A DNA stretch of 64,000 nucleotides from an uncultured delta proteobacterium. GTDB lineage: Bacteria > Desulfobacterota > Desulfovibrionia > Desulfovibrionales > Desulfovibrionaceae. Shown piece by piece: positions 4,203 through 49,362 of this stretch. The stretch lies in assembly GCA_900079685.1 (NCBI GenBank), contig LT599020.1, positions 52,217 to 116,216 on the forward strand, written 5' to 3'. The notes below the pieces were generated by a model, which did no database searches, was not told the origin of the DNA, and saw only the letters and a program-made list of their open reading frames with translations. Both the position numbers and the translations under genes were made by a program. The first letter of the stretch is position 1, and every line of letters starts with the position of its first letter.

Positions 4203-4204
4203 CA

Positions 4205-5041: not shown

Positions 5042-5064
5042 TTGCATGTATCCAGGATCCAATA

Positions 5065-6348: not shown

Positions 6349-8673
6349 GTGGTGAAGATACTCCCTTTTTCGGAAATTGATCCTTCAGATTGGGATGCGC
6401 TCGTTGCATCCTCGCCTGACGGCTTTTTGTGGGCGACAGCGGCCTGGAGAGAGGTCGTCCTCGGCGTTGAGCGATGGGGGCTTGTTGACCACAGCTTCGG
6501 CATTTATGACGGAGGGCGGCTGGTCGCTGTTACGCCGCTGCAATATATCCCTGCAATCCAACAGCTCGCTTCGGGCGGCTGGAGTCTTTCCGGCCCGGTT
6601 GTCATAGCCGGAGCCGAGAGCAAGTATCGCCGAAAAATCATCCAATACGCTATGATGCATATTGAAGGCCTTGCACACGATTTAGGCGCTTCAAGCATTT
6701 CATTCGGCGCTCCCGCCATGAACGAAACGTCTCTCAAAGCCCCTTGGGGGGTCAACCCCTGGCTGGAATATGGCTTTGATGACTGTTCAGGAACTACCAG
6801 AATTGTGGACTTGGCGCCGGATGAAGATGTTTTATGGAAGAACGTATCCTCTACAGCCAAACATGCCATACGAAAAGCGCGGGAAGAAGGCCTTAGTGTT
6901 TCCCGTGAGCGTTGGGCTGATATGCTTGATGCCTATTATGCCGCCCATGTCGAGACATATACCAGGACGGGAGTGCCTCCGCACCCAAGGGCGTATTTCG
7001 AGAATATCGCGATTTACAGCGCACCTGCGGGAACTAGCGTCCTTTGGGTGTGCCGGGATATGGAGGGAAAGGCGGTAGCATTTCATAACAGCGCGCTTTT
7101 TAAGGAAGCCGGAATGTATCATACAGGCTGTTCCATCGGGACGGCCTCGCGAAGCGGAGCTGGGTATCTGCTTTTTTGGGAAGCCTTGCGGGGTGTCAAG
7201 CAATTAGGGTGCCGCTGGTATGAATGTGGTGAAACCTTCCCCGCGAAACGAGCTGCGCATGCGGAAAAGGATAAAACCTTTGGCTTGACGGTATTCAAAA
7301 GCAAGTTCGGCGGCGAGGATCATCGAGTTTTTAAATGTATACGTCATTTGGAGCATAACATAGAGAAGAGAGTTGCAGAGCCTTTGAAGAGAGAATTACT
7401 GAAGAACTTTATGCGGTCGGGAAAGCAGTTGGTTCGCGCAATCCTTGGACGCGACGCCACGGAAAGGCTTGCCGGATGGTTGTGGGGGGGATACCGTTTC
7501 GTGCAATGGGCCAAGCGGCCGCGCCGGACGAGCTTTATTCGCCCGTACTGGGGAGGCAGGGAGCTGGCTGCGCTGTGTACTCCGTCGGCGTACAACCGCG
7601 CTCTCGACAGATGCAGAGCTGTTCTGCGCCGGGATCTGGCCCTTGAAACCGGCGATGATGTTGTTTTGACCAGCAGCGGAAGAACTGCCTTGGAAGTGTG
7701 CCTGCGGGGACTCGCGCAAAAGTATCCCGGCCGCCGGGTCGTCGTTATCCCAAGTTACAGCTGTAAAGGCGTTCTAGACCCAGTGGAACGGGCCGGGTTG
7801 ATCCCTTTGTATGTGGACAGCACCAGTGCTCTCAATCCAGACCAGGGCGTTGTGCGCGAAGTACTGGATGAAACCGTGCTGGCCTGCGTCTATCCGCATT
7901 TGTGTGGTAATGTGGATGAGGTTTCGCAATTGCGCGGCTTGGCACAAGAACACGGTATAGCTTGGATAGATGATTACTGCCAGGGGTACGCGCCTGGCCT
8001 GGACATCGCCCATAACGGATTTGCTGTCTTTTCTTTCGGGATGGGGAAAAACCTGATGGCGACCGCCGGGGGAGCTCTGGTCGCGCGTGGGGTAAAAAAC
8101 AACAACGACATCAGCCATGTCTTGTCTACCGAAACAAGTAAGCACGCGGGCGTCCGGCTTTTGGTTATTCTCCTGCGGCACTTTTTGCGGTTTTCCGTGC
8201 CTGATCGTTTTCTTGGGAAGCCAAGGGCATTGGGGGCGCAATATGAATATAAAGGAATGTCGAAGCTGGATGCCGTTCTTTTGAACGTACAACTGGCTAA
8301 GGCTCCGGAGATTATCCGGGTGCGGCGGGAGAACGGCCAAAATCTGCTGGAGGTTATGCCTTCCGATGTTCCAGGAGGCATAACGGCCCCCAGGCATTTG
8401 TTCACCAAGTTTCCCCTGGTATGTAAGGATGATACGGAAGTAGAGCGTTTATGTGCGGTTTTCTGGAAGTATAATATTGAATTGGAGAATATGTATATTC
8501 CACTGCATATGCGTTTTGATAGATTTTGCGTTTCAGAGTATTGCCCCCCCTGTTGTGAAAAACTTAAAGGGCACGTATTTAATGTTCCTGTTCGGCCCAA
8601 TATGAGCAATCGGGAAAAGATTCGTGTCCGCAGGGCGCTTTCTGAGTTTTTTGGGGAAAGAGATAATGGCTGA
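6349..8673 (+). CDS. Fusion protein: FemAB/GNAT-like acyltransferase plus DegT-type PLP aminotransferase domain
   Basis: The 774-residue protein joins two enzymes. Residues 1-350 resemble FemAB-like (Acetyltransf_6) proteins, with the family-like YHTGCSIG and GAGYLLFWEALRGVKQLG segments. Residues about 385-774 resemble DegT/DnrJ/EryC1 sugar aminotransferases, with SSGRTALEVCLRGL, a DDYCQG segment and the likely PLP-binding lysine in FSFGMGKNLMATAGG. An obvious role is making an amino sugar and acylating or aminoacylating it, but substrates are unknown. The start is the GTG pair at 6349/6352 after AAGGA. The stop overlaps the next gene. This domain pairing is unusual. Confidence 0.82.
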   Translation: MVKILPFSEIDPSDWDALVASSPDGFLWATAAWREVVLGVERWGLVDHSFGIYDGGRLVAVTPLQYIPAIQQLASGGWSLSGPVVIAGAESKYRRKIIQYAMMHIEGLAHDLGASSISFGAPAMNETSLKAPWGVNPWLEYGFDDCSGTTRIVDLAPDEDVLWKNVSSTAKHAIRKAREEGLSVSRERWADMLDAYYAAHVETYTRTGVPPHPRAYFENIAIYSAPAGTSVLWVCRDMEGKAVAFHNSALFKEAGMYHTGCSIGTASRSGAGYLLFWEALRGVKQLGCRWYECGETFPAKRAAHAEKDKTFGLTVFKSKFGGEDHRVFKCIRHLEHNIEKRVAEPLKRELLKNFMRSGKQLVRAILGRDATERLAGWLWGGYRFVQWAKRPRRTSFIRPYWGGRELAALCTPSAYNRALDRCRAVLRRDLALETGDDVVLTSSGRTALEVCLRGLAQKYPGRRVVVIPSYSCKGVLDPVERAGLIPLYVDSTSALNPDQGVVREVLDETVLACVYPHLCGNVDEVSQLRGLAQEHGIAWIDDYCQGYAPGLDIAHNGFAVFSFGMGKNLMATAGGALVARGVKNNNDISHVLSTETSKHAGVRLLVILLRHFLRFSVPDRFLGKPRALGAQYEYKGMSKLDAVLLNVQLAKAPEIIRVRRENGQNLLEVMPSDVPGGITAPRHLFTKFPLVCKDDTEVERLCAVFWKYNIELENMYIPLHMRFDRFCVSEYCPPCCEKLKGHVFNVPVRPNMSNREKIRVRRALSEFFGERDNG

Positions 8674-10221: not shown

Positions 10222-11484
10222 CAATGCTGTCCGGTTAAGCTGCCAAGGATAACAGACTGAGGTTATAGAGGTTTTCATTTTTTCGTCGTCGGGGCTTCAG
10301 GAGTTCTTCCAGCGAGTCTGTTCCGAGGATGTTCAGTGAGGCGATTTGGAAAAGTTGCTGCACGGACAGCCCTGTTTTACTCAGGAATTTCTGGTAGGCC
10401 AGGAGCAGGTAGACGGTCAGCGCGGTATAAATCTGAATCAATACAGCATTTTCCGTGTTCCCGACAAAGCTTTTGATGCGTAGATTCTGTTTGATTTCGC
10501 GAAAAAAGAGTTCGATTTTCCAGCGTTCTTTGTAAATATCGGCGATGGTGCGGGCGGACAGGCGAAAGTGATTTGTCAGAAATTCGTAACGCTTGCCTGT
10601 TTCGGCGTCCCGGTAGCCGATGCGACGCAGGCGCAAGACTTTTCCCCGGCTGTGCTTCACTTCGATAATGTGGTCGGAAGTAACCCCGCTTGTGCGGTTC
10701 ACCGGGCGGCGCTCCAGCAGTTTGTAAACAGCGTTGTCCTTCAGGCGGGTGACGAAAAAGATGCCATTTTCGAGCAGGGTCTGAAACCAGGGGTAACTGA
10801 CATAGCCTTTGTCGAAGGTCACGATGGAGCCTTTGGGCAGAGAAAGACTTTTCGCCATACGGCTTTCGTGCGTTTTGGCCACATCAACGGTGACAAATGC
10901 CGGGATATGACCATCGTGGTCAAGCACTGTGTTCATTTTGACGCCGCCCTTGTTTTGGCGGAACGTGGCCCAGGGAAACAGCGACAAACACAGGCTGATG
11001 GTGGTGGCGTCCATGCTGTAAAGTTTGCATTTGAAATGAAATTTGTGTTTGGAGGCCTTGGGAACACACAGGCTGTACATGTCGGCAAATAGATCTTTGA
11101 AAAAGCCCACAGGCCGGGAGTTGTTGGCATCGGAGAAAGTGGAACGTGCAACGGGAAAAAGGCCAAAATGATACAGCCTCTTGCCGCAGGCGGCCAAACA
11201 GCGCAATCCGTCACGCATGGAGCGCCTTGCTGCAAGCTGGATAAAAGCCATGACCGTAAACTGTTCCTTAAAGCCGAATTGTCGAGAAGAACGACCTGTT
11301 TTATGCCGGGCTTCCAGTTTCTGAAAAACATGTCTGGGAATCAATGATAGCATTTGAGAAAAGAGTGTATTATGATGGCTCATGTTCAAAATCTCCTTGG
11401 GCTGCAATGGGTTATGCAACTGTTTTGTAGCATAAACCTCGGAGATTTTGAACATATTTAACGCACCTTAGCCGGACAGCATTG
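10222..11484 (-). mobile_element. IS4-family insertion sequence, complete (copy 2)
   Basis: The element is 1263 bp with terminal inverted repeats beginning CAATGCTGTCCGG at both ends. It is flanked by a 9-bp direct repeat GATTGATAG (10213-10221 and 11485-11493), a size usual for IS4-family transposition and a sign of simple insertion. It carries one transposase gene on the minus strand. It lies between the acyltransferase and a methyltransferase gene and does not interrupt a recognisable gene. Confidence 0.95.
10235..11383 (-). CDS. IS4-family transposase (DUF4372/DDE type)
   Basis: The 382-residue DDE transposase has an N-terminal DUF4372-like region and a catalytic core with YSMDATTISLCLSLF (first Asp), IVTFDKGYVSYPWF (second Asp) and the IS4 signature YKERWKIELFFREIKQNL carrying the Glu. 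The ATG at 11383 is preferred over the longer frame to 11455 because AAGGAG stands about nine bases upstream. The protein is the same as that of the copy at 56819-57967, so both may be active. Confidence 0.93.
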   Translation of the reverse strand: MSHHNTLFSQMLSLIPRHVFQKLEARHKTGRSSRQFGFKEQFTVMAFIQLAARRSMRDGLRCLAACGKRLYHFGLFPVARSTFSDANNSRPVGFFKDLFADMYSLCVPKASKHKFHFKCKLYSMDATTISLCLSLFPWATFRQNKGGVKMNTVLDHDGHIPAFVTVDVAKTHESRMAKSLSLPKGSIVTFDKGYVSYPWFQTLLENGIFFVTRLKDNAVYKLLERRPVNRTSGVTSDHIIEVKHSRGKVLRLRRIGYRDAETGKRYEFLTNHFRLSARTIADIYKERWKIELFFREIKQNLRIKSFVGNTENAVLIQIYTALTVYLLLAYQKFLSKTGLSVQQLFQIASLNILGTDSLEELLKPRRRKNENLYNLSLLSLAA

Positions 11485-11623
11485 GATTGATAGCTATACC
11501 CAAATTACAACAGGCGTTTTGATACGGTTCATATATGCCGAAAATGGGTTAGAATTTCTTGTGAATTGTAAGATGGTTAACTTGTTTTAAGAATTTTTTC
11601 AGCCAGGACTGGGTTTAAAAAAC

Positions 11624-23738: not shown

Positions 23739-24028
23739 ATGTTTACTCAAGATTTTTTTAAAGAAGTTGCTGAAATATTTAAAATTTTAGACAGTCAAGC
23801 CATTGAGGATATGGCATCAAGGCTTGCGGATGTAAGGAATGGAGGAGGGAGACTTTTTATCTTGGGAGTTGGCGGTTCCGCAGGGTCAGCTTCCCATGCC
23901 GTTAATGATTTTAGAAAGCTGGCCGGATTTGAGGCATACTCTCCGGTAGACAATGTATCAGAACTGACCGCCAGGACAAACGATGACGGGTGGGAGAGTG
24001 AGGTAGGTCGTCAAATTCGAACGCCATG

Positions 24029-24910
24029 TTAAGCGGCAATCGGCAGCTTTGGTTTCATCATCCCGCTTCTGACAAACGCCGCCGGTGAGAGATAGCCAAG
24101 TGCTGCCTGGCGTCTTTGTCGATTATAAAAAACCTCAATATACTCTGTCACATCTGTAATTGCTTCTGCCTGTGATCTGTAGCTTTTGCGATGGACCAAC
24201 TCATTCTTCAATAAGCCCCAGAAGCTCTCCATGGGGGCGTTGTCGTAACAATCCCCTTTTTTGCTCATGGAACAGATCAGACCATATGCGTGGAGCTTTT
24301 TCTGATAAGCTGCGCTGCAATACTGGCTGCCGCGATCCGAATGCAGAATCAGTCCCACAGGTGGGCGGTGGAAACGCACCGCCTTCATCAATGCAGCCAA
24401 GACAAGCCCGGTATCCATACGCTCAGCCAGGCTGAAGCCGACAATTTCCCGGCTGTGTAAATCTTTGATTCCGGCAAGATATACCCAGCCCTGCCGTGTG
24501 GGGATATAGGTTATGTCACTCACCCACACGCGGTTGTGTTCGCCCGGCGTGAAGTCACGGTTCAGAAGATTGGAAGCGACCGGCAACGCGTGATTTGACT
24601 CCGTGGTGCGGATAACCCGTCGTTTGCGCTTACAGACGAGGCCCAGTTCACGGCGGAGCTGCTTGACCTTCCAGAGGCTGACGGCACAACCGCTTGCCAC
24701 GAGTTCCCGGTGCAACCGCTCCGCGCCGTATGTGCCGCGTGTTCTCTGGTGGGCAGCCAGAACCTCGGCCTCCAGACGAGTTGTCTTGTTTGATGGGGCA
24801 GCGTCGCGTTTGAGCCAGGCGTAGTATCCACTGACAGATGCGTGCAAAACCAGGCAAATAAAACGGACAGGATATCGGTGTCGCAAAGCACTGACTGCGG
24901 CGTACCTCAC
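24029..24910 (-). CDS. IS3-family transposase OrfB (DDE integrase core)
   Basis: The 293-residue catalytic subunit has the rve DDE core: HNRVWVSDITYIPT (Asp), LILHSDRGSQYCS (Asp) and DNAPMESFWGLLKNEL (Glu). An HTH_21-like segment with TRGTYGAERLHRELVASG comes before it. The start at 24910 is a GTG overlapping the OrfA stop by four bases. The frame is -1 to OrfA and stays open back to an A7 run, so the active OrfAB transposase is probably made by -1 ribosomal frameshifting. Confidence 0.93.
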   Translation of the reverse strand: MRYAAVSALRHRYPVRFICLVLHASVSGYYAWLKRDAAPSNKTTRLEAEVLAAHQRTRGTYGAERLHRELVASGCAVSLWKVKQLRRELGLVCKRKRRVIRTTESNHALPVASNLLNRDFTPGEHNRVWVSDITYIPTRQGWVYLAGIKDLHSREIVGFSLAERMDTGLVLAALMKAVRFHRPPVGLILHSDRGSQYCSAAYQKKLHAYGLICSMSKKGDCYDNAPMESFWGLLKNELVHRKSYRSQAEAITDVTEYIEVFYNRQRRQAALGYLSPAAFVRSGMMKPKLPIAA

Positions 24911-25203
24911 AGCGACTCTTTGGCAAAGTACGCCGCCGCTTTTTTTAGAATGTCGCGCTCCATACGCAGCAGGGCGTTTTCTTTCTTCAACCGCGCCAAC
25001 TCCGCATCCTGCTCACTCACGCCCGGCTTCAAGGCGAACTCGTGCTTGTCCAGTCGGTACTGCGTAACCCAATTCGCTAAAGTTTTCATAGGAACAGACA
25101 ACCTTCGCGCTGTTTCCGTTACGCCGAAGCCATCCTCAACCGCCATGGTGACGGCTTGCTGCCTCAATTCCTGTGAATAACGTCCTCGTGGTGTTTTCGT
25201 CAT
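24907..25203 (-). CDS. IS3-family transposase OrfA (helix-turn-helix)
   Basis: The 98-residue protein has an HTH_Tnp_1 fold with GRYSQELRQQAVTMAVEDG and ETARRLSVPMKTLANWV, followed by a leucine-zipper-like C-terminus ELARLKKENALLRMERDILK. It binds the element ends and forms the N-terminal half of the OrfAB fusion. A run of seven A (complement of 24940-24946) in the codons CTA-AAA-AAA-GCG is the probable slippery site. GGAGG stands just before the ATG. Confidence 0.93.
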   Translation of the reverse strand: MTKTPRGRYSQELRQQAVTMAVEDGFGVTETARRLSVPMKTLANWVTQYRLDKHEFALKPGVSEQDAELARLKKENALLRMERDILKKAAAYFAKESL

Positions 25204-25594
25204 AGAACCTCCTCATATGGATATGAACTATGGCGTCCGTTTTTTCCAGCCTACCTCAGAGTGTGTTTGCCGCATGGCTGCAGGGATCACGCTTGGCCAG
25301 CAACGATGGACTGCTGATTTTGTCCGTAGGAGGAGGGGACGCCGAACGTAACATTAGCTCCAACCTTGTGCATGCTATCGACTATGCTAAAGCGATCGGG
25401 GCGGCAGTTACCGGAATAGTCGGGAAAGACGGCGGATATACAGCCAAACAAGCTGATGTGGTTGTTGTGGTTCCCACTGTGAACCCTGCTCACGTCACTC
25501 CTCATACAGAGTCTTGCCATTCGTACATTTGCCACTTACTGGTATCGCACCCGAAGCTGAAAATGGCGCCTACCAAATGGGAATCCGTTCTCTA

Positions 25595-26146
25595 ATGACC
25601 TGCAAGGCGGTTTTTCTCGATCGGGACGGGGTTCTGAATGTTGCCGTTATTCGGAATGGAAAAAGTTTTCCCCCTGCGGATGCGGCGAGCTTGGTGTTGA
25701 CCCCCGGCGCGAAAGAGGCAATAGAACGGATGCGTCGAGCCGGTTATTTATGTATTTGCGTTACAAATCAGCCAGATGTTGCCAGAGGCTCTCGTACTCT
25801 GGAAAATGTCGCGGCCATGAATGAAAAGGTTGCTGCCGCGCTGGCCCTTGATGACCTTTTTATGTGCACCCATGACAACGACGACCATTGCGCGTGTCGC
25901 AAGCCCAAACCCGGAATGCTTTTGGATGCAGCGGCAAAATGGGGTATTAATCTGCGAGCGAGCATCATGATCGGAGATCGAGCAAGTGATATGGAGGCCG
26001 GATTTGCGGCGGGCTGCCAGACAGTGTTTATCCCAAATCCCGAAATACTTGGGCAGAAAATCCCATCCTTTACAGTAGTGTGCAAAACACTCACCGATGC
26101 AGCGGAGTATGTCGCGATGTCGGGAAACAAAGAGAATGTATTATGA
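25595..26146 (+). CDS. gmhB: D-glycero-D-manno-heptose bisphosphate phosphatase-like HAD enzyme
   Basis: The 183-residue HAD phosphatase begins MTCKAVFLDRDGVLN, with the two catalytic aspartates, then VTNQPDVARG and the zinc-binding C-x-C region HDNDDHCACRKPKPGML typical of GmhB, and IGDRASDMEAG. It would remove the 7-phosphate in heptose synthesis. The TAATG overlap with the isomerase stop decides the start and shows both belonged to one operon before the IS insertion. Confidence 0.9.
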   Translation: MTCKAVFLDRDGVLNVAVIRNGKSFPPADAASLVLTPGAKEAIERMRRAGYLCICVTNQPDVARGSRTLENVAAMNEKVAAALALDDLFMCTHDNDDHCACRKPKPGMLLDAAAKWGINLRASIMIGDRASDMEAGFAAGCQTVFIPNPEILGQKIPSFTVVCKTLTDAAEYVAMSGNKENVL

Positions 26147-26850
26147 ACAGCTTGAATGTTAAGATATTTGCTGATGGTGCAGACAAGGCCGGAATTCTTG
26201 CAATGTACGCAAAACCCTGGATAAAGGGTTTCACCACCAACCCCACACTCATGAAAAAGGCCGGGATTACCGATTATGCCGGATTTGCTAAAGATGTGGT
26301 CCAGGCTGTTCCCGACAGGCCGCTGTCTTTTGAGGTTTTTTCAGATGATTTTGATGAAATGGAGCAGCAGGCACGCATCATCAGTGAGTGGGGCGATAAC
26401 GTCTATGTGAAGATTCCGGTGACGAACACGAAGGGCGAGTCAGCTTGTCCTTTGATCAAACGCCTTGCCGCTGCGGGAGTAAAACAAAACGTGACTGCGC
26501 TCATGACGTTGGGACAGGTGCGTGACGTCGCCGCCGCTCTTTCCGACGGACCTTCCGCATATGTTTCCGTCTTTGCGGGGCGCATCGCGGACACGGGCCG
26601 TGATCCCGTTCCCGTTATGAGCGCGGCCGTCGCCATGCTTGCGCCGTATCCGCAGCTCGAGCTTATTTGGGCCAGTCCGCGTGAACTTCTTAATATCATC
26701 CAGGCAAATGCCATTGGGTGTCAGATTATTACCGTGACCAACGACATTCTTGGCAAGTTGGGCAATCTTGGAAAAGAGTTGGAAGACTTTTCACTTGATA
26801 CGGTCAAAATGTTCCGTAACGACGCGATACAGGCGGGTTTTTCGTTATAA
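26143..26850 (+). CDS. Transaldolase (short, TalC/FSA-type)
   Basis: The 235-residue enzyme belongs to the short transaldolase/fructose-6-phosphate aldolase family. It shows GFTTNPTLMKKAGI, the Schiff-base lysine in NVYVKIPVTNTKG and the VSVFAGRIADTG phosphate-binding segment. ATG 26143 overlaps the gmhB stop (ATGA). A transaldolase in this position could supply sedoheptulose 7-phosphate, the substrate of the split isomerase, tying it to heptose synthesis; this role is inferred from position. Confidence 0.87.
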   Translation: MNSLNVKIFADGADKAGILAMYAKPWIKGFTTNPTLMKKAGITDYAGFAKDVVQAVPDRPLSFEVFSDDFDEMEQQARIISEWGDNVYVKIPVTNTKGESACPLIKRLAAAGVKQNVTALMTLGQVRDVAAALSDGPSAYVSVFAGRIADTGRDPVPVMSAAVAMLAPYPQLELIWASPRELLNIIQANAIGCQIITVTNDILGKLGNLGKELEDFSLDTVKMFRNDAIQAGFSL

Positions 26851-28830: not shown

Positions 28831-29796
28831 ATGCAAACAACACATTTTATCACCGGCGGCGCGGGCTTTATCGGGTCAACGCTGGCAGACAGATTGCTGG
28901 TTGAGGGCCACCGGGTCATTGTTTTTGATAACCTCTCTACCGGACAGCGCGCATTCTTGGCCGACGCTTCGCGCAGTGACCGCTTCACTCTTGTTGAAGC
29001 CGACCTTCTTGATCTGGACGTTTTGGTGAAAACCATGGCCGGGGCGGCAATGGTGTGGCATTTAGCGGCCAACGCTGATGTGCGCTTCGGTCTGGAGCAT
29101 CCCCGCAAGGATTTGGAGCAAAATACCATTGCTACGCATAATGTTCTGGAAGCGATGCGCGCCAACAACGTAAAGAAGATAGCCTTTTCATCTACCGGCT
29201 CAATTTACGGCGAACCAGAGGTGCATCCCACGCCGGAGAATGCTCCCTTTCCCATCCAAACTTCCCTATATGGAGCTTCAAAGCTGGCATGCGAAGCTCT
29301 TATCCAGGCATATTGCGAGGGATTCGGTTTTTCTGGGTATATTTTCCGGTTCGTTTCAGTTCTTGGGGAACGCTATACTCACGGCCATGTTTTTGATTTT
29401 TGTCAAAAGCTTCTTGCGGACTCCTCTGTGCTTCCGGTCCTCGGCAATGGGCGCCAGCGCAAGTCGTATATGTATGTACAGGATTGCATTGACGCCATGT
29501 TGCTTGCTGTCATCCAGGGCACGGCCAAGGTTAATATTTTTAACCTCGGTGTTGACGATTACGTGGAAGTGAATGATTCCATTGCCGTGATTACAAGAGA
29601 AATGCGGGTACGCCCACGCCTGGAATACAGCGGCGGTGAAAGAGGGTGGGTGGGAGACAGTCCGTTTATTTGGCTGGATACGGCCCGTATCCGTGCGCTT
29701 GGTTGGGAGCCGAAAGTGTCTATCCGGGATGCAGTGGGCTTGACTGTGCAATGGCTGCTGCGGAATGATTGGGTTTTTTCCGCGCGCAATGCGTAA
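28831..29796 (+). CDS. NAD-dependent nucleotide-sugar epimerase/dehydratase (extended SDR)
   Basis: The 321-residue protein begins with the Rossmann segment HFITGGAGFIGSTLADRLL, followed by FDNLSTGQRAFL, FSSTGSIYGEPEVHPTPE and the catalytic YGASKLACE, all typical of UDP-glucose 4-epimerase-like SDRs. The substrate is uncertain; in this setting it could be GDP-heptose or another nucleotide sugar. ATG 28831 gives the normal family start; ATG 28810, which overlaps the upstream stop, would add seven residues. Confidence 0.87.
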   Translation: MQTTHFITGGAGFIGSTLADRLLVEGHRVIVFDNLSTGQRAFLADASRSDRFTLVEADLLDLDVLVKTMAGAAMVWHLAANADVRFGLEHPRKDLEQNTIATHNVLEAMRANNVKKIAFSSTGSIYGEPEVHPTPENAPFPIQTSLYGASKLACEALIQAYCEGFGFSGYIFRFVSVLGERYTHGHVFDFCQKLLADSSVLPVLGNGRQRKSYMYVQDCIDAMLLAVIQGTAKVNIFNLGVDDYVEVNDSIAVITREMRVRPRLEYSGGERGWVGDSPFIWLDTARIRALGWEPKVSIRDAVGLTVQWLLRNDWVFSARNA

Positions 29797-29813: not shown

Positions 29814-30527
29814 ATGTCGAAATGGCCCAAGCGTTTGCCGGAATTGACGGCCGAGCAGGAACGGATCAGTGCCGAGTTTATGGCGGCGCACCTGGATGCC
29901 ATGCAGACGAAATGGTACGGGTTTGTTGAGGGTTTTAACCATAAATATCCTCTCCGTTCGTTTTCGCCGGGTTGTCGTACGTTGGAGCTTGGAGCCGGAC
30001 TTGCAGCCCATCTCAAATATGAGCGATACACTGAGCAGGAATATTATTGCAACGAACTGTTGCCCGAGCTCTGCAAGCGCATAAAGATGGACTATCCCGG
30101 AGTGAATGTAGTGCCGGGAGATTGCCAGAAAGGTTTCCTACAATTTGAGGACGGCTTTTTTGATCGTATTTTGGCGATACACGTTCTGGAGCATTTGCCC
30201 AACCTCCCGGCGGCCGTTCGAGAAGCGTACCGTCTGCTTCGTGCGGGAGGGCAGTTTTCAGTCGTCATCCCCTGCGAGGGCGGTCTTGCCACCCGGATTG
30301 CGCGGAATATATCGGCTCGGCGACATTTTGAAAAAAGATACGGACAAAGCTACGACTGGTTTATACAGTCGCAGCACATAAACTTTCCTGAAGAAATTTT
30401 GGAAGAGCTTTTTTTGTACTTTGCTCCGATCCATAATCGCTGGTTTCCCTCAGTGTTCCCATCGGTCTCTTTCAATCTCTTTTTGGGCATGACATTGGTA
30501 AAACGCGGTGAGGGCATTTTGGCATGA
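29814..30527 (+). CDS. SAM-dependent methyltransferase, class I
   Basis: The 237-residue protein has the motif I-like RTLELGAGLAAHLKYE, LAIHVLEHLPNLPAAVREA and LLRAGGQFSVVIPCEGG, typical of Methyltransf_11. ATG 29814 has GGAGG at good spacing and replaces a longer frame from 29769. The stop overlaps the dehydrogenase-like gene (ATGA). It sits among sugar-nucleotide enzymes, so a methylated precursor or residue is likely. Confidence 0.83.
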   Translation: MSKWPKRLPELTAEQERISAEFMAAHLDAMQTKWYGFVEGFNHKYPLRSFSPGCRTLELGAGLAAHLKYERYTEQEYYCNELLPELCKRIKMDYPGVNVVPGDCQKGFLQFEDGFFDRILAIHVLEHLPNLPAAVREAYRLLRAGGQFSVVIPCEGGLATRIARNISARRHFEKRYGQSYDWFIQSQHINFPEEILEELFLYFAPIHNRWFPSVFPSVSFNLFLGMTLVKRGEGILA

Positions 30528-31831
30528 AGCTGGGCAATATGACTGTTTGTGTGCAAGGCTTGTGGCATTTGGGCAGCGTGACTGCGGCAGCCTTGGCCTC
30601 TTTGGGGTTTCACGTTGTGGGGCTTGACGAAACACCGGACACGGCTGCATTGCTGGCTCAAGGGCGCGCGCCGGTGATGGAGCCGGGCCTTGACGACCTA
30701 TTGCGCCAAGGGCTTGATGCGGGGCATCTTTCTTTTACGATTTCACGGGAAGTGGCTCTTGCCCATGCCGATGTTTTATGGGTAACGTACGACACTCCCG
30801 TGGACGAAGATGACGTTGCCGATGTAGATGCTGTGATTGCCTCTGTTCTTTCTTCAATTTCTTGCCTCCGTCCCGGTGCCGTGGTGTTGGTTTCTTCGCA
30901 GCTCCCTGTTGGTTCCATTAGCCGCCTTGAAGAGGAAAGCTTCCGTATTCGGCAAGCAAAGGACGTGTTTTTCGCCTGTTCGCCTGAGAACCTGCGCTTG
31001 GGCAATGCGTTGAAAGTATTTTTGGAACCAGACAGAATTATTGTTGGCTGTCGTGACATTTCTGCCCGAAACGTTCTCGAACGTCTGCTTTCGCCGATTT
31101 CTTCGCAACTGGAGTGGATGCGGACAGAGTCGGCGGAGATGACCAAACATGCCATTAATGCTTTTTTGGCTACATCAGTTGTTTTTGCGAACGAGATTGC
31201 TTGTCTTTGTGAAGCAACCGGAGCAGACGCCAAAGAGGTTGAGCGGGGGCTGAAGACAGAGCAGCGTATCGGTCCAAAAGCCTACTTGTCGCCGGGAGCG
31301 GCTTTCGCGGGTGGAACTCTTGCCCGGGATATTGCTTTTTTGGGAACTGTGGCCCAGATTAACCAATTGCAAGTTCCTTTGTTGCATTCCGTAAAGGTGA
31401 GCAATGACGCGCACAAGTCTTGGGTAAAAATAAAACTTGCAACACTGTTTCCGAAACTTACGGGTGTCCATATTGCAGTCTGGGGGTTAACTTACAAGGC
31501 GGGAACAGATACCTTGCGCCGTTCCGCCGCCGTGGAGTTAGTTGAGTATCTTTGTGGGCAGGGTGCAAATGTCCATGTGCATGACCCGGCCGTCCCCCAG
31601 CTGCCTGCAAACTGGGGGCCTCTGATTCAGCGGCACACCGATCCCATTTCCGCCGTGGCACGGGCACAGGTGTTGGTTGTCGGAACGGCATGGCCGGAAT
31701 ATAGAAATATTGCCCCGGAGATGGTTTTTTCCAAAAACCCGAACCTTGCCGTGATTGATGCAGATCGATTTCTCCTGGGCTGGGCCGACAAGGTTTCCAC
31801 ATACTATGCGGTTGGCAGCACAAATCAATAG
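30524..31831 (+). CDS. UDP-glucose/GDP-mannose dehydrogenase family protein lacking the catalytic cysteine
   Basis: The 435-residue protein has the family's three-domain layout: Rossmann start VQGLWHLGSVTAAALASLG, the FACSPENLRLGNAL segment, the helix with EMTKHAINAFLATSVVFANE and the C-terminal WGLTYKAGTDTLRRSAA. In normal members the oxidising cysteine sits in GGSCFPKD; here the segment reads AFAGGTLARD, with threonine instead. The usual two-step oxidation to a uronic acid through a thioester is therefore unlikely. It may do a single oxidation or another redox step on a modified sugar together with the SDR and Gfo/Idh genes downstream. Confidence 0.87.
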   Translation: MKLGNMTVCVQGLWHLGSVTAAALASLGFHVVGLDETPDTAALLAQGRAPVMEPGLDDLLRQGLDAGHLSFTISREVALAHADVLWVTYDTPVDEDDVADVDAVIASVLSSISCLRPGAVVLVSSQLPVGSISRLEEESFRIRQAKDVFFACSPENLRLGNALKVFLEPDRIIVGCRDISARNVLERLLSPISSQLEWMRTESAEMTKHAINAFLATSVVFANEIACLCEATGADAKEVERGLKTEQRIGPKAYLSPGAAFAGGTLARDIAFLGTVAQINQLQVPLLHSVKVSNDAHKSWVKIKLATLFPKLTGVHIAVWGLTYKAGTDTLRRSAAVELVEYLCGQGANVHVHDPAVPQLPANWGPLIQRHTDPISAVARAQVLVVGTAWPEYRNIAPEMVFSKNPNLAVIDADRFLLGWADKVSTYYAVGSTNQ

Positions 31832-31855: not shown

Positions 31856-32737
31856 ATGCCACATCTTTTGCAAGGTAAATTTGGAATAGTTACAGGCGCA
31901 AATCAGGGACTTGGATTGGAAATAGCCCGGCTTTGTCTTCGCGCTGGGGTTAGTGGCTTGGCGCTATGCGCTCGGAATAGTGCCGCGCTGGATGCAGCCG
32001 TTGCAGAACTTCAACATGAAGCATCCCCACAGCAAGCGATCCTGGCACTTCAGGCAGATGTTTCAAACCAGGATCACGTGGAGCGTTTTTGCCGTACCGC
32101 CTTGGAGACGTTCGGTGATATGCATTTTTTGATAAATAACGCCGGTATTTATGGACCGGTAGGCCCGATCGAATCTGTGGACTGGAATGAATGGCAGCAG
32201 GCGTTGGCCATCAACTTAGGCGGGTCTGTCTTGATGTGCCGCGCCCTGATTCCGCATTTCAAAAAAAAGCGGGAAGGGAAAATCATCCAAATTTCCGGAG
32301 GGGGCGCCACCAATCCCATGCCCAACTTCACCGCGTATGCGGCGAGCAAGGCCGCTGTTGTGCGTTTTGTCGAGAGTTTGGCCAAAGAGCTTGCCGAGTA
32401 TGGCATTGACGTAAATTCCATTGCGCCGGGTTTGCTTGATACCCGTTTGCTGCAAGAGGTTGTTGATGCAGGACCGGATGCCGCCGGAAAAGATTTTTAC
32501 GACAAAATGATTGCTGCCAAAGAAAGTGGTAAAACAACGCCGCTTTCTTTGGGGGCGGAACTCGCCGTTTTTCTTGCCTCAGACGCAAGCAGAGGCATCA
32601 CCGGACGTCTGATAAGCGCCCAGTGGGACAAATGGCGGGAATGGCCGAACCATCTATCCGAGCTTGAAAGTTCGGATATGTATACCCTTCGCCGCATTAC
32701 CGGACGAGACCGAGGCCATGATTGGGGTGATGTATGA
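31856..32737 (+). CDS. Short-chain dehydrogenase/reductase
   Basis: The 293-residue classical SDR has the cofactor motif GIVTGANQGLGLEIARL, the NNAGIYGP segment, the catalytic serine in IIQISGGGATNP and the YAASK tyrosine-lysine pair. The substrate is probably a sugar keto group. AAGGGGG precedes ATG 31856 at good spacing. It overlaps the Gfo/Idh-type gene by four bases, so the two oxidoreductases are made together. Confidence 0.88.
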   Translation: MPHLLQGKFGIVTGANQGLGLEIARLCLRAGVSGLALCARNSAALDAAVAELQHEASPQQAILALQADVSNQDHVERFCRTALETFGDMHFLINNAGIYGPVGPIESVDWNEWQQALAINLGGSVLMCRALIPHFKKKREGKIIQISGGGATNPMPNFTAYAASKAAVVRFVESLAKELAEYGIDVNSIAPGLLDTRLLQEVVDAGPDAAGKDFYDKMIAAKESGKTTPLSLGAELAVFLASDASRGITGRLISAQWDKWREWPNHLSELESSDMYTLRRITGRDRGHDWGDV

Positions 32738-33708
32738 AATTGGGCATTATCGGATGCGGCCTTATAGGCGCCAAGCGGACGGCGGCTATGCCTGAGCTGA
32801 CCTTGGTGGCCGCCGCCGACGTGGACTATACCCGGGCGCAAGCGTTGTGCGCGCGCTATGGCGGGCAATCTTTTGACGATGCCGCAGGGGTTTTCGCCTC
32901 GGATGCCGATATCGTTGTTATAGCCGTTACCCATAATCAATTGGCTCCGCTTGCGCTTGAGGCCATCAGGGCTGGGAAGCATGTGCTATTGGAAAAGCCT
33001 GGTGCCCGCACTGCCGGTGAACTCGCGGATGTCGCCGCACTGGCGAAGGAAAAGAATCTCAAGATTAAGGTCGGCTTCAATCATCGCTTTCACCCAGCCA
33101 TTTGGAAGGCCAAGGAACTGGTGGACCAGGGCGCGGTCGGTGAAATACTCTTTGTCCGTGGGCGGTACGGGCATGGCGGAAGACCGGGATACGACAAGGA
33201 GTGGCGGTTCAGCAAAAGCCTTTCCGGTGGCGGCGAACTACTGGATCAAGGCACCCATCTTATTGATCTTTCTCGCTGGTTTCTCGGCGAATTTACCGAG
33301 GTTCGCGGAGTTCTTCCTCGCTATTTTTGGAGAGGAGAGGTCGAAGACAACTGTTTTTTGACCTTGCTCACCGCGAAAGGACAATGCGCGCATTTGCATG
33401 CCAGTTGGACCGAGTGGAAAAACATGTTCTGCCTTGAGATATACGGGAAGGACGGGAAGTTGCAGATTGACGGTCTAGGCGGCAGCTATGGGCTTGAGCA
33501 ACTGGCTTTTTACAAAATGCTGCCGGGCATGGGCCCGCCAGAAACAACCATATGGCAATACCCTTTTCCTGACTCGTCCTGGGCGTTGGAAATGCACGAA
33601 CTGGTTGATGCAATTCAAAACGACCGACAGCCTGTGGGCGACATCGCGGATGCGATCGCCAACCTGACTGTTGTGGACGCCCTTTATGCACAAGGAGCCT
33701 CGGCATGA
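32734..33708 (+). CDS. Gfo/Idh/MocA-family oxidoreductase
   Basis: The 324-residue protein starts MKLGIIGCGLIGAKRTAAM, a Rossmann fold, and carries the signature EKPGARTAGELADVAAL and VGFNHRFHPAIWKAKELV with DQGTHLIDLSRWFLG, all usual in this family of sugar dehydrogenases and reductases. The start overlaps the SDR stop and the stop overlaps the HddA-like kinase start. It probably oxidises or reduces a sugar linked to the heptose pathway. The exact carbon is unknown. Confidence 0.88.
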   Translation: MKLGIIGCGLIGAKRTAAMPELTLVAAADVDYTRAQALCARYGGQSFDDAAGVFASDADIVVIAVTHNQLAPLALEAIRAGKHVLLEKPGARTAGELADVAALAKEKNLKIKVGFNHRFHPAIWKAKELVDQGAVGEILFVRGRYGHGGRPGYDKEWRFSKSLSGGGELLDQGTHLIDLSRWFLGEFTEVRGVLPRYFWRGEVEDNCFLTLLTAKGQCAHLHASWTEWKNMFCLEIYGKDGKLQIDGLGGSYGLEQLAFYKMLPGMGPPETTIWQYPFPDSSWALEMHELVDAIQNDRQPVGDIADAIANLTVVDALYAQGASA

Positions 33709-34682
33709 TCATAGCCCGTAGCCCGCTTCGCATTACCCTCGGCGGTGGAGGGACGGATCTGCCATCCTATTACCGCTCCCATGAGGGGTTTCTTATAGCA
33801 GGGGCGATAGATAAATATGTCTATGTCACCGTGATGCGGCCGTTTACACCGGGAATATATTTGAAATATTCCCAACTAGAGAATGTTAAAACAGTTGATG
33901 AAGTGCAGCACAAGATTATCCGTGAAGCCCTGATCATGCAGCAATTGCGAACGCCGCAGATCGAAATCACCACCTTGGCGGATATCCCTGCTGGTACAGG
34001 GTTGGGGTCGTCCGGGAGTTTTACCACGGCTCTGCTCAAGGCCCTGCATACACACCGCAGGCAACTGCTTTTGCCCGGCGAATTGGCAGAAATGGCCTGC
34101 CATATAGAAATTGACCGTCTTGGCGAGCCCATAGGTAAACAGGACCAGTATATTGCAGCGTATGGCGGTTTGACATGCTTTACCTTCCACGCGGATGACA
34201 CCGTCTCTGCGCAGCCCTTGAACGTGCCTTTTCAGACGATATGCGACCTTGAAGACAAGCTCCTGTTATTTTTTACCGGTTTTTCAAGGAGTGCCGGGTC
34301 TATTTTGAAAGACCAGAATGTCAGATCGCAAAAAAGCGATCAGGATATGCTGCGGAATCTGCATTATGTTAAAGAGTTGGGCCGCCGATGTAAGGATGCG
34401 CTCGAAAATAGCGATTTGGAGGGATTTGGGTGTCTCATGCACGAGCATTGGGAGCATAAAAAAAAGCGTTCAGGCGGCATGAGTAACCCGGAAATCGATG
34501 CCTGGTACGATCTAGGCATGCGCAATGGCGCTCTCGGCGGCAAACTTGTCGGCGCGGGCGGCGGCGGATTCCTGATGTTCCTCGCTGATGATACGGTCAA
34601 GCTTCGGCGGGCCATGTGCGGCGCGGGGCTGGAGGAAGTCCGCTTCAGGTTTGATTTTGACGGCACCAAAACCATGCTGTGA
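33705..34682 (+). CDS. hddA: GHMP-family heptose 7-phosphate kinase, HddA-like
   Basis: The 325-residue kinase has MIIARSPLRITLGGGGTDLP at the N-terminus, the ATP-binding GTGLGSSGSFTTALLKAL and GKLVGAGGGGFLMFL near the C-terminus, as in HddA/GHMP sugar kinases. It would phosphorylate C1 of D-glycero-alpha-D-manno-heptose 7-phosphate. The nucleotidyltransferase follows after nine bases, supporting a GDP-heptose assignment. A fucokinase-like role is less likely because gmd/fcl supply GDP-fucose. Confidence 0.87.
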   Translation: MIIARSPLRITLGGGGTDLPSYYRSHEGFLIAGAIDKYVYVTVMRPFTPGIYLKYSQLENVKTVDEVQHKIIREALIMQQLRTPQIEITTLADIPAGTGLGSSGSFTTALLKALHTHRRQLLLPGELAEMACHIEIDRLGEPIGKQDQYIAAYGGLTCFTFHADDTVSAQPLNVPFQTICDLEDKLLLFFTGFSRSAGSILKDQNVRSQKSDQDMLRNLHYVKELGRRCKDALENSDLEGFGCLMHEHWEHKKKRSGGMSNPEIDAWYDLGMRNGALGGKLVGAGGGGFLMFLADDTVKLRRAMCGAGLEEVRFRFDFDGTKTML

Positions 34683-34691
34683 TGTGGCGCC

Positions 34692-35393
34692 ATGTTAACT
34701 GTTGCAATACTTGCCGGCGGCCTGGCCACGCGGATGCGCCCCGCTACCGAAACCATCCCTAAGTCTCTTTTGGATGTCGCCGGCGAGCCCTTTGTTTATC
34801 ACCAGCTCCGCTTGTTGCAACGGCGAGGAATTACACGGGTTGTCTTCTGTCTTGGCTATTTAGGGGGACAGATCGAGTCGGCCGTGGGCGACGGTTCCCA
34901 GTTCGGGTTGAGCGTTTCCTACTCATATGACGGCCCTGAACTATTGGGAACGGGCGGCGCTCTCCGCCGTGCGCTTCCTCTGTTTGGCGAATCTTTTTTT
35001 GTTTTGTACGGAGACTCCTATTTGCCCTGTGATTTCGCCACGGTGCAGGCGGCTTTCAGAGAGAGCGGCAAACCCGCCCTGATGACGGTTTTTCGCAATG
35101 AGGGACGGTTCGACGCAAGCAACGTCATATTTGAGAACGGGATCATTGTCCGTTACGATAAAAAAGAAAAAAATCCGAGAATGCAGCATATTGATTACGG
35201 CTTGGGCATTCTTACGGCGAATGATCTTGAGTACTGTATTCCTGCGGGAACGAAATATGACCTTGCGGACCTATATCGCGTATTGCTTGAAAGAGGGCAC
35301 TTGGCCGGATATGAAGTTTTTGAACGATTTTATGAAATAGGCTCACCGCAAGGTTTGCGCGAATTGGCGGAGCGAATAGGTTTTTTGCCGTGA
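34692..35393 (+). CDS. hddC: Sugar-1-phosphate nucleotidyltransferase, HddC-like
   Basis: The 233-residue enzyme has the nucleotidyltransferase signature LAGGLATRMRPATETIPKSL, LLGTGGALRRAL and FFVLYGDSYLPCD, typical of HddC and related GTP- or CTP-sugar transferases. Following the HddA-like kinase it would make GDP-D-glycero-alpha-D-manno-heptose. Nucleotide choice cannot be read from the sequence alone. The stop overlaps the GtrA-like start. Confidence 0.86.
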   Translation: MLTVAILAGGLATRMRPATETIPKSLLDVAGEPFVYHQLRLLQRRGITRVVFCLGYLGGQIESAVGDGSQFGLSVSYSYDGPELLGTGGALRRALPLFGESFFVLYGDSYLPCDFATVQAAFRESGKPALMTVFRNEGRFDASNVIFENGIIVRYDKKEKNPRMQHIDYGLGILTANDLEYCIPAGTKYDLADLYRVLLERGHLAGYEVFERFYEIGSPQGLRELAERIGFLP

Positions 35394-47142: not shown

Positions 47143-48093
47143 GTGCCGCTTCTTCCCCCTGACGTCGCTATTGTGTTGCTTAATTACAATGGCGGTACCG
47201 ATACCACAAAGTGTCTTCAGGCTCTTTACGGCTTGTCTTCCCCTCCTGGTCAAATAATTGTTGTGGACAACGCTTCTACGGCAGAAGACCGTAATGTCAT
47301 TGAGGCTACTTGGGAACGCCTACGCAAAGTTTCAGGCAAAAACGCCATCCGCGGGCATTGGGTGTTACTCACGGAAAATAGAGGGTTTTCCGCAGGCAAC
47401 AATGCGGGTATCCAACTCGCATTACAGGACCCCGCATGCCGGGCTGTATGGATACTCAACAATGATACGGAACCGGCTGTGGAGGCTCTTGAAACCCTCT
47501 GTCGCAGGCTCAATGACAACCCGAAAGCCGGGCTCGCTGGATCAACGCTGGTTTACTCGCACGCCAGAAATACCGTCCAGTGCGCGGGAGGGTTCGTCCT
47601 TTCCAGGCTGACGGGCGCGACTCCGGCATTGCACGGAGGAGAATCGCTAGAAACCGTCGGAAGAATTCCTCCGGAATCCGTTGAAAGGAAATTGGGGTAC
47701 CTTTGCGGTGCATCCATCCTTGTCAGACGGGAAGTATTCAAGACCGCCGGTTTTTTGCCCGAGGAATATTTTTTGTACTATGAGGATGCCGCCTTTTGCC
47801 TTGATGCGCAAAGGGCTGATTACTCGTTAGTATGGGCGCCCGGTAGCATTGTTTTTCACAAGGAAGGCGGCTCGACCGGCGCGAAATCCGAGGCCGCCGA
47901 CCGAGGTTTGAAGCGGTCGCGGATCGTGGACTACCTCGCGTTGCGGAACAGAATATATCTTATCCGCCGATATTTCCCCCATTGCCTTCCTGTTGCTATC
48001 GCGAGCTATGCCGGGGTGATGCTGAACCGGCTGCGAAGAGGACAGGGCGGGCGATTGCCGCTTGTTCTTAAGGCGTTGGCGGACGGGATATGA
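47143..48093 (+). CDS. Glycosyltransferase family 2, rhamnosyltransferase-like; C-terminus cut by IS3
   Basis: The 316-residue product shows the rhamnosyltransferase-type GT2 features VAIVLLNYNGGTDTTKCLQ, VDNAS, LLTENRGFSAGNNAGIQ and WILNNDTEPAVEAL. GTG 47143 follows the previous stop by one base. The TGA stop at 48091-48093 is the first three bases of IS3 copy B, so the natural C-terminus is lost. Joining 48090 to 49354 continues the frame without a stop into the next GT4 gene, so the ancestral product may have been a GT2-GT4 fusion. Confidence 0.88.
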   Translation: MPLLPPDVAIVLLNYNGGTDTTKCLQALYGLSSPPGQIIVVDNASTAEDRNVIEATWERLRKVSGKNAIRGHWVLLTENRGFSAGNNAGIQLALQDPACRAVWILNNDTEPAVEALETLCRRLNDNPKAGLAGSTLVYSHARNTVQCAGGFVLSRLTGATPALHGGESLETVGRIPPESVERKLGYLCGASILVRREVFKTAGFLPEEYFLYYEDAAFCLDAQRADYSLVWAPGSIVFHKEGGSTGAKSEAADRGLKRSRIVDYLALRNRIYLIRRYFPHCLPVAIASYAGVMLNRLRRGQGGRLPLVLKALADGI

Positions 48094-48145
48094 GGTAGGC
48101 TGGAAAAAACGGACGCCATAGTTCATATCCATATGAGGAGGTTCT

Positions 48146-48442
48146 ATGACGAAAACACCACGAGGACGTTATTCACAGGAATTGAGGCAGCAAGCCGTCA
48201 CCATGGCGGTTGAGGATGGCTTCGGCGTAACGGAAACAGCGCGAAGGTTGTCTGTTCCTATGAAAACTTTAGCGAATTGGGTTACGCAGTACCGACTGGA
48301 CAAGCACGAGTTCGCCTTGAAGCCGGGCGTGAGTGAGCAGGATGCGGAGTTGGCGCGGTTGAAGAAAGAAAACGCCCTGCTGCGTATGGAGCGCGACATT
48401 CTAAAAAAAGCGGCGGCGTACTTTGCCAAAGAGTCGCTGTGA
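48146..48442 (+). CDS. IS3-family transposase OrfA (copy B)
   Basis: The 98-residue protein is identical to OrfA of copy A: helix-turn-helix with ETARRLSVPMKTLANWV, then a zipper-like helix. An A7 run shortly before its end is the probable -1 frameshift site leading to OrfAB. GGAGG precedes the ATG. Confidence 0.93.
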   Translation: MTKTPRGRYSQELRQQAVTMAVEDGFGVTETARRLSVPMKTLANWVTQYRLDKHEFALKPGVSEQDAELARLKKENALLRMERDILKKAAAYFAKESL

Positions 48443-49320
48443 GGTACGCCGCAGTCAGTGCTTTGCGACACCGATATCCTGTCCGTTTTATTTGCCTGGT
48501 TTTGCACGCATCTGTCAGTGGATACTACGCCTGGCTCAAACGCGACGCTGCCCCATCAAACAAGACAACTCGTCTGGAGGCCGAGGTTCTGGCTGCCCAC
48601 CAGAGAACACGCGGCACATACGGCGCGGAGCGGTTGCACCGGGAACTCGTGGCAAGCGGTTGTGCCGTCAGCCTCTGGAAGGTCAAGCAGCTCCGCCGTG
48701 AACTGGGCCTCGTCTGTAAGCGCAAACGACGGGTTATCCGCACCACGGAGTCAAATCACGCGTTGCCGGTCGCTTCCAATCTTCTGAACCGTGACTTCAC
48801 GCCGGGCGAACACAACCGCGTGTGGGTGAGTGACATAACCTATATCCCCACACGGCAGGGCTGGGTATATCTTGCCGGAATCAAAGATTTACACAGCCGG
48901 GAAATTGTCGGCTTCAGCCTGGCTGAGCGTATGGATACCGGGCTTGTCTTGGCTGCATTGATGAAGGCGGTGCGTTTCCACCGCCCACCTGTGGGACTGA
49001 TTCTGCATTCGGATCGCGGCAGCCAGTATTGCAGCGCAGCTTATCAGAAAAAGCTCCACGCATATGGTCTGATCTGTTCCATGAGCAAAAAAGGGGATTG
49101 TTACGACAACGCCCCCATGGAGAGCTTCTGGGGCTTATTGAAGAATGAGTTGGTCCATCGCAAAAGCTACAGATCACAGGCAGAAGCAATTACAGATGTG
49201 ACAGAGTATATTGAGGTTTTTTATAATCGACAAAGACGCCAGGCAGCACTTGGCTATCTCTCACCGGCGGCGTTTGTCAGAAGCGGGATGATGAAACCAA
49301 AGCTGCCGATTGCCGCTTAA
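48439..49320 (+). CDS. IS3-family transposase OrfB (copy B)
   Basis: The 293-residue DDE protein is identical to OrfB of copy A and holds the three catalytic segments HNRVWVSDITYIPT, LILHSDRGSQYCS and DNAPMESFWGLLKNEL. The frame is -1 to OrfA and starts at a GTG overlapping its stop by four bases. Confidence 0.93.
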   Translation: MRYAAVSALRHRYPVRFICLVLHASVSGYYAWLKRDAAPSNKTTRLEAEVLAAHQRTRGTYGAERLHRELVASGCAVSLWKVKQLRRELGLVCKRKRRVIRTTESNHALPVASNLLNRDFTPGEHNRVWVSDITYIPTRQGWVYLAGIKDLHSREIVGFSLAERMDTGLVLAALMKAVRFHRPPVGLILHSDRGSQYCSAAYQKKLHAYGLICSMSKKGDCYDNAPMESFWGLLKNELVHRKSYRSQAEAITDVTEYIEVFYNRQRRQAALGYLSPAAFVRSGMMKPKLPIAA

Positions 49321-49362
49321 CATGGCGTTCGAATTTGACGACCTACCTCAATACGCGGGCGG

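Follow-up and report, generated by a model that had tools for sequence, protein, structure and literature searches.

A stretch of 64,000 nucleotides from an uncultured delta proteobacterium of the Desulfovibrionaceae (assembly GCA_900079685.1, contig LT599020.1, positions 52,217 to 116,216; hereafter the window) encodes, at 30524-31831 on the + strand, a protein of 435 amino acid residues that possesses the fold of a nucleotide-sugar dehydrogenase and a Thr in place of the catalytic Cys. The same replacement is found in LmbL of lincomycin biosynthesis, with which the protein groups in phylogenetic trees, and seven of its eight partner genes have lincomycin counterparts. From these domain searches, alignments, trees and a structure prediction, we lean towards the view that it is an LmbL-type, NAD-dependent dehydratase of a nucleoside diphosphate (NDP)-octose, in a pathway where a short-chain dehydrogenase/reductase (SDR) would take the place of the aminotransferase LmbS and yield an NDP-8-deoxyoctose for surface polysaccharide.

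A dehydrogenase fold without its catalytic cysteine

The window protein is a member of the UDP-glucose/GDP-mannose dehydrogenase superfamily. It matches PF03721, PF00984 and PF03720 at 108.5, 79.1 and 69.4 bits, above the Pfam cut-offs of 27, 25.4 and 30, respectively, and TIGR03026 of NCBIfam at 280 bits (cut-off 189.8); none of the NCBIfam equivalog models reaches its cut-off. The predicted structure, with a mean predicted local distance difference test score (pLDDT) of 91.3, displays the usual UDP-glucose dehydrogenase (UGDH) fold, the top structural match being 3gg2_B (Z 41.6, 2.8 Å across 419 residues). Identity to the listed solved structures is 22-32%, and the structural matches rule out a new fold.

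The phmmer alignment with PDB 3gg2 pairs, without gaps, the segment GGSCFPKD with AGGTLARD (residues 262-269; window 31307-31330), such that the catalytic Cys is replaced by Thr265, the codon of which lies at 31316-31318. Uronate-forming NDP-sugar 6-dehydrogenases are characterized by the Cys in GGSCFPKD, a residue that the window protein lacks. In addition, the cofactor loop (residues 12-17; 30557-30574) reads GLWHLG where GxGYVG is usual. Both changes had been reported in the initial annotation, which gave the segment as GGTLARD, and both are confirmed by this alignment and by translation of the open reading frame (ORF). Lys208, Asn212, Asp269 and Glu155, which we take to be the positions of the family's catalytic residues, are retained. 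Compared with UDP-glucose 6-dehydrogenase (e.g., 3gg2), the protein therefore has the same three domains, fold and Lys/Asn/Asp/Glu residues, but differs in the missing Cys, a Thr changed to Gln126, the Phe of NPEF changed to Asn and the altered cofactor loop. Two more family members are encoded in the source genome; the one that is 33% identical to the window protein has a normal motif, and the 26% identical one reads GGHCIGVD.

The best family match of each fetched locus was aligned, and rows scoring more than 300 bits to the window protein were taken as its clade (91 rows, 84 distinct proteins), beside 53 canonical rows; a protein of another type with Cys in this column (L003) was excluded from the canonical set. 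Eighty of the clade loci were located by the peptide patterns YDTPVD.. and FACSPEN in a scan of public genome contigs, in which 80 of 106 confirmed loci were kept. The Thr lies outside these patterns, but FACSPEN biases Asn156 and Cys152. L127 and L144, the latter because of a stop within the fetched range, were omitted from alignment A2. The catalytic column contains Thr in all 91 clade rows and Cys in all 53 canonical rows. Thirteen positions (W14, H15, Q126, N156, L159, H209, T265, L266, A267, R268, H297, W300 and R333) distinguish the clade from the canonical enzymes; twelve of these are identical in every clade row and W14 in 89 of them, while both groups retain Lys208, Asn212, Asp269 and Glu155. 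Judged from this alignment, the Cys-to-Thr change is the mark of a clade, beyond chance.

The titles of the clade loci, mostly metagenome-assembled genomes, name 11 phyla, chiefly Verrucomicrobiota (29) and Pseudomonadota (24); one further record is labelled archaeon and two others carry no resolved phylum. The archaeon record (L131, 6.2 kb) holds a clade member with an epimerase and a weak nucleotidyltransferase match, the full partner set not being nearby. A pseudogene or an isolated mutation was considered for the window protein and is ruled out by the uniform Thr. A survey of 199 genomes from the window's family sets apart, besides the window protein, just three others (59, 49 and 46% identical); among the matches listed, the next are at most 37% identical. 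With a profile of the clade, 395 genomes of the phylum yielded four matches of 556-770 bits, including the window's, and the next at 325 bits; among 394 genomes of the class around a Mycolicibacterium locus, 1e-105 was passed only by that locus's own genome. Seven of the eight host genomes searched have a second family match of at least 300 bits, the eighth (G578) having a partial one only.

Relationship to LmbL of lincomycin biosynthesis

According to PMC4351081 and PMC12945683, GDP-octose is formed through the action of the transaldolase LmbR, the isomerase LmbN, the kinase LmbP, the phosphatase LmbK and the guanylyltransferase LmbO, and is then converted to GDP-lincosamide by LmbM, LmbL, CcbZ and CcbS. 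When 392 genomes of a Streptomyces-like genus were searched with the clade profile, four candidates being scored per genome, all 12 matches better than 1e-92 carried the GGSC motif; LmbL was located instead via the transaldolase. The lincomycin cluster recovered in this way (L168, Streptomyces-like genus) has the gene order K-L-M-N-Z-P-O-S-R, and its glycosyltransferase ORF matches PDB 8il0/8ila at 947 bits, 8ILA being identified as LmbT in PMC12945683. Its LmbL exhibits the motifs GLWHLG, LSQVPA, IPENLRLG, VKHATN and SGATLRRD, with Thr at the Cys position, and carries ten of the 13 clade residues. At the eight positions of a signature defined in this analysis (W14, H15, Q126, N156, L159, H209, T265 and R268) the window protein and LmbL are the same at 8/8. 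LmbL/CcbL and the window protein hence have in common the fold family, the Cys-to-Thr change and the elements GLWHLG, SQ.P, PENLRLG, KH and T-L-x-R-D. In a second lincosamide-type cluster (L170/L171, G1094) the L protein, from L170, reads SGSTLQRD; the Z protein of this cluster ends in a C-terminal carrier domain matching CcbZ.

Trees were built from rows chosen by hand for spread: the window and 26 other clade rows, 13 of 54 non-clade rows and four Streptomyces-like canonical enzymes. With the five motif segments removed, two LmbL proteins join the 27 clade rows, apart from the 17 canonical ones (support 100/99), and a quick tree with an outgroup recovers the grouping of LmbL and the clade with a Shimodaira-Hasegawa-like approximate likelihood ratio test (SH-aLRT) value of 99. 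Pairwise scores of LmbL are 162-205 bits with nine clade members versus 126-152 with five canonical enzymes, four of them of its own genus. LmbL is the closest characterized relative found here, and a strongly diverged one.

The partner genes correspond as well. Across 25.3-35.4 kb of the window, identities to LmbK, L, M, N, O, P, R and Z are 40, 36, 40, 36, 37, 34, 29 and 35%, the SDR being the one partner with no lincomycin counterpart. In all four non-lincosamide genomes compared, the best match of LmbM is the epimerase of the gene set (175-220 bits; the next best, where there is any, at most 104), and the next paralogue of LmbM in its own genome scores 88 bits. LmbP likewise has its best match in the kinase of the gene set in the same four genomes, with a narrow margin in Lawsonia, where a second kinase scores 131 versus 151 bits. 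An LmbS-like aminotransferase was not detected in the 64-kb window (tblastn, 1e-5) and occurs in one of 79 loci. Conversely, the lincomycin cluster possesses LmbS, and the five fetched lmb-type loci revealed no homologue of the SDR. The SDR and LmbS thus appear, from their distribution, to replace each other.

Conserved gene set, proposed pathway and alternatives

Partner genes were scored with presence thresholds of our own, the same for clade and control loci. After removal of L147, the protein of which is the same as that of L146, 79 clade loci remained, 44 of them with at least 7.5 kb downstream; 20 canonical UGDH loci, hand-picked and with flanks of up to about 10 kb, served as controls. 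An order of epimerase, LmbL-type gene, SDR, Gfo/Idh, kinase, nucleotidyltransferase, isomerase, phosphatase and transaldolase recurs across phyla. All eight partners are present in 35 of the 44 loci, and each single partner in 38 to 43 of them, whereas in the 20 control loci no partner exceeds the threshold, two having weak epimerase or nucleotidyltransferase matches below it. The SDR gene is located directly downstream of the LmbL-type gene in 73/76 loci and the epimerase gene directly upstream in 64/75 (overlapping genes counted). Whether the variant would form a clade with constant neighbors had been posed as a check in the initial annotation; it does, and the SDR and Gfo/Idh proteins named there are among the partners. 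In the open-licence literature we found no article dealing with this gene set in organisms other than lincosamide producers, subscription journals being mostly beyond the search.

On plasmid 3 of Lawsonia intracellularis (L149), eight of the nine genes are contiguous save for a single interposed membrane-protein gene, and the epimerase gene is farther away. The product is annotated there as "nucleotide sugar dehydrogenase," a name which implies a uronic acid that the enzyme is probably unable to make. The plasmid of this small-genome host is 195 kb in size, and the window's contig measures 195,249 bases. A degenerate or regulatory paralogue devoid of catalysis, as might be surmised from the alteration of the catalytic Cys, the Thr-to-Gln126 position and the glycine-rich loop, is hardly credible: the four retained residues and the 13 clade residues are fixed or nearly so across 11 named phyla, and the gene is kept on a plasmid of an organism with a genome of about 1.7 Mb.

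Three other loci (L199, L201 and L208) contain the transaldolase, isomerase, phosphatase, kinase, epimerase and nucleotidyltransferase genes but lack an LmbL-type gene in the 17 kb covered. Their transaldolases score 119-132 bits with LmbR versus 80-90 with that of the window, and the clusters are possibly for octoses formed without dehydration. L198 combines a transaldolase, isomerase, SDR, Gfo/Idh protein and kinase with a dehydrogenase reading GGSCLPKD, perhaps an octuronic or hexuronic variant of the gene set.

The four steps from GDP-octose to GDP-lincosamide were reportedly described by Wang et al. in 2020 as 6-epimerization, 6,8-dehydration, 4-epimerization and 6-transamination, and we assume that LmbM, LmbL, CcbZ and CcbS catalyze them in that order, LmbM presumably acting at C6 and LmbZ at C4. 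By analogy, we infer the substrate, nucleotide, reactions and product of the window's pathway. The transaldolase, isomerase, kinase, phosphatase and nucleotidyltransferase would make an NDP-octose, probably GDP-octose, from pentose- and hexose-phosphates, and the LmbM-like epimerase would adjust C6. The LmbL-type enzyme would then oxidize the secondary C6-OH using bound NAD+; removal of the C7 proton, loss of the C8-OH and return of the hydride would give a 6-keto-8-deoxy sugar. The LmbZ-like Gfo/Idh protein would act at C4, and the SDR, in the place of LmbS, would reduce the C6 ketone to furnish an NDP-8-deoxyoctose with a 6-OH instead of the 6-NH2 of lincosamine. Since the product at C6 would be a ketone rather than an aldehyde, neither a thiohemiacetal nor a second oxidation would be needed and the Cys would be dispensable; oxidation of a secondary alcohol would explain the loss of the Cys and, at position 126, of the Thr, as well as the retention of Lys, Asn and Asp. 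Candidates for new catalytic groups are T265, H209, Q126 and N156. In 6-deoxyhexose pathways, an SDR-type NDP-hexose 4,6-dehydratase together with a ketoreductase follows a similar course of transient ketone, loss of the beta-hydroxyl and subsequent reduction. The logic proposed here is alike, but the fold (UGDH, related to 6-phosphogluconate dehydrogenase) and the carbon positions differ.

An alternative, which we regard as unlikely, is that of a one-step dehydrogenase for NDP-octose or NDP-heptose, which would leave a stable ketone at C6 by oxidizing the secondary alcohol and would release NADH, whereupon the SDR would reduce the ketone from the other face and invert C6, or the keto sugar would pass to the Gfo/Idh enzyme. 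The adjacency of the SDR gene fits such a scheme, as does a table in a 2025 review that gives LmbL simply as "Dehydrogenase." Any reaction halting after the first oxidation would likewise be compatible with the absence of the Cys and of the Thr that precedes the PVG motif. The relationship to LmbL, reportedly a dehydratase, argues against this alternative, and a second inversion at C6 would be redundant in a gene set that already has an epimerase. The initial annotation had envisaged a different reaction performed alongside the SDR and Gfo/Idh proteins; the constancy of these partners supports this much, while the "single-step oxidation" offered there fares less well in view of LmbL.

A second alternative concerns the chain length. 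The families of the isomerase, kinase, phosphatase and nucleotidyltransferase are those of the GDP-heptose module GmhA-HddA-GmhB-HddC, to which the window's set adds the transaldolase, epimerase, LmbL-type enzyme, SDR and Gfo/Idh protein. The product might accordingly be an NDP-heptose derivative, with the transaldolase just a source of sedoheptulose 7-phosphate, HddA as the kinase, GmhB as the phosphatase and GmhA as the isomerase. The window kinase scores best with the HddA model and matches heptose-phosphate kinase structures, the isomerase fragment scores best with GmhA, and GmhB is second for the phosphatase, after a general histidinol-phosphatase domain. The cut-offs of the GmhA, HddA, GmhB and HddC models are in no case reached. 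The kinase reaches 169 bits against an HddA cut-off of 600, a strict value attained in none of 188 genomes searched. However, the similarity to these heptose models is shared by LmbP and LmbK, which act on octose, and a heptose has no C8 leaving group. Of 46 loci with the kinase, nucleotidyltransferase, isomerase and phosphatase, 44 also have the transaldolase, and the other two are 15.9 and 11.6 kb long. Among other HddA-type kinase loci (20 hand-picked from 33 kinase matches in the phylum sample, some on short contigs) the transaldolase was detected in four, all of which also have the isomerase, and not found in 16. This association favors, short of proof, an octulose phosphate. We consider the heptose pathway quite improbable, and the heptose substrate suggested in the initial annotation is less likely than an octose, given the dedicated transaldolase.

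Several observations weigh against the octose dehydratase reading and its derivation from LmbL. LmbL, the reaction of which would be a redox-neutral 6,8-dehydration, appears in the 2025 review only as a dehydrogenase. LmbL is 36% identical to the window protein and departs from the clade at A267, W300 and R333, and two of the ten shared residues, L266 and H297, are not exclusive, being present in one canonical enzyme of Streptomyces-like origin. Its branch is long (3.06 changes per column), and the outgroup row of the quick tree is so long (7.56) that its placement is unsure. On the clade profile LmbL scores 291 bits, under all 17 canonical rows tested (310-366), and the L168 genome is apparently among the 392 in which this profile failed to bring up LmbL; because the overall profile score is low, the link rests on the shared residues, the tree, the pairwise scores and the partner genes. 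The match of LmbN is confined to the 3′ isomerase fragment (36% identity, 40 bits), and LmbR is closest to the FSA/TalC model versus TIGR02134 for the window's transaldolase, at an identity of just 29%. Within 10 kb of one clade member (L097, 10001-11284), no partner exceeds the threshold. For the nucleotidyltransferase, the top-scoring NCBIfam model is MurU-like and its cut-off is not reached, and so GDP is not established as the nucleotide. The window's isomerase gene is itself interrupted by a 1260-bp element that recurs, identical and inverted, about 24 kb away at 48091-49350.

Another Cys might also substitute for the missing one. C152, three residues ahead of Glu155 and just before the PENLRLG loop, is found in 65 of the 91 clade rows and in none of the 53 canonical rows, a further point on the same side. 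Sequence comparison indicates that it cannot be a general replacement, since the other 26 clade rows have Tyr, Ser, Val or Phe and LmbL has His. C229 occurs in 83/91 clade and 52/53 canonical rows; a third Cys column of the clade (69/91, canonical 0/53) corresponds to Val340 in the window protein. The initial assertion that a thioester mechanism is impossible consequently holds for the classical Cys, absent throughout the clade, but another active-site Cys could be involved where C152 is present.

Somewhat more doubtful is the wider proposal that a widespread, undescribed 8-deoxyoctose route, built around a dehydratase with the UDP-glucose dehydrogenase fold, serves the surface polysaccharides of some 11 phyla, and that the lincomycin aminosugar pathway is a specialized offshoot in which an aminotransferase replaced the reductase. 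If so, many environmental bacteria, and Lawsonia as well, would harbor an unrecognized class of eight-carbon sugars with a dedicated nine-gene operon, and lincomycin's unusual octose could be traced to its origin. It would also constitute a natural case of one fold passing from a two-step oxidation to a proposed dehydration via defined residue changes.

The operon and its surroundings in the window

The genes of the operon and of the exporter are on the + strand. The isomerase-phosphatase-transaldolase part precedes the remaining operon genes. The 5′ part of the isomerase gene (GmhA/LmbN-like) lies at 23742-23999 and its 3′ part at 25260-25595; the interrupting element (23999-25258), which we term IS3-type, contains an rve-type transposase gene at 24029-24910 on the - strand. 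The isomerase gene is followed by a HAD phosphatase (GmhB/LmbK-like; 25595-26146) and a small, LmbR-like transaldolase of the TIGR02134 type (26143-26850). Next are the NAD-dependent epimerase (LmbM counterpart; 28831-29796) and a methyltransferase (29814-30527), an optional neighbor present in 7 of 44 loci. Downstream of the LmbL-type gene are the SDR (31856-32737), the Gfo/Idh/MocA oxidoreductase (LmbZ counterpart; 32734-33708), a GHMP sugar kinase (HddA/LmbP-like; 33705-34682) and the sugar-1-phosphate nucleotidyltransferase (LmbO counterpart; 34692-35393). The start codons of the phosphatase, epimerase, methyltransferase and SDR genes are approximate. Copies of the 1260-bp element thus flank the operon on both sides. 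Given the split, and another GmhA-like gene (52 bits) on a different contig of the source genome, the operon may here be either impaired or rescued.

The operon is surrounded by genes for glycosyltransferases and methyltransferases and for an exporter of the ABC-2/Wzt kind (ABC-2 permease and Wzt-type ATPase, 4172-6327), and the cluster is one of polysaccharide export and synthesis, whereas the lincomycin genes belong to an antibiotic cluster. A distant DegT-type domain is present at 6349-8670. A second pair of transposase copies, of the DDE_Tnp_1 type and 99.9% identical, occupies 10222-11486 and 56716-57980.

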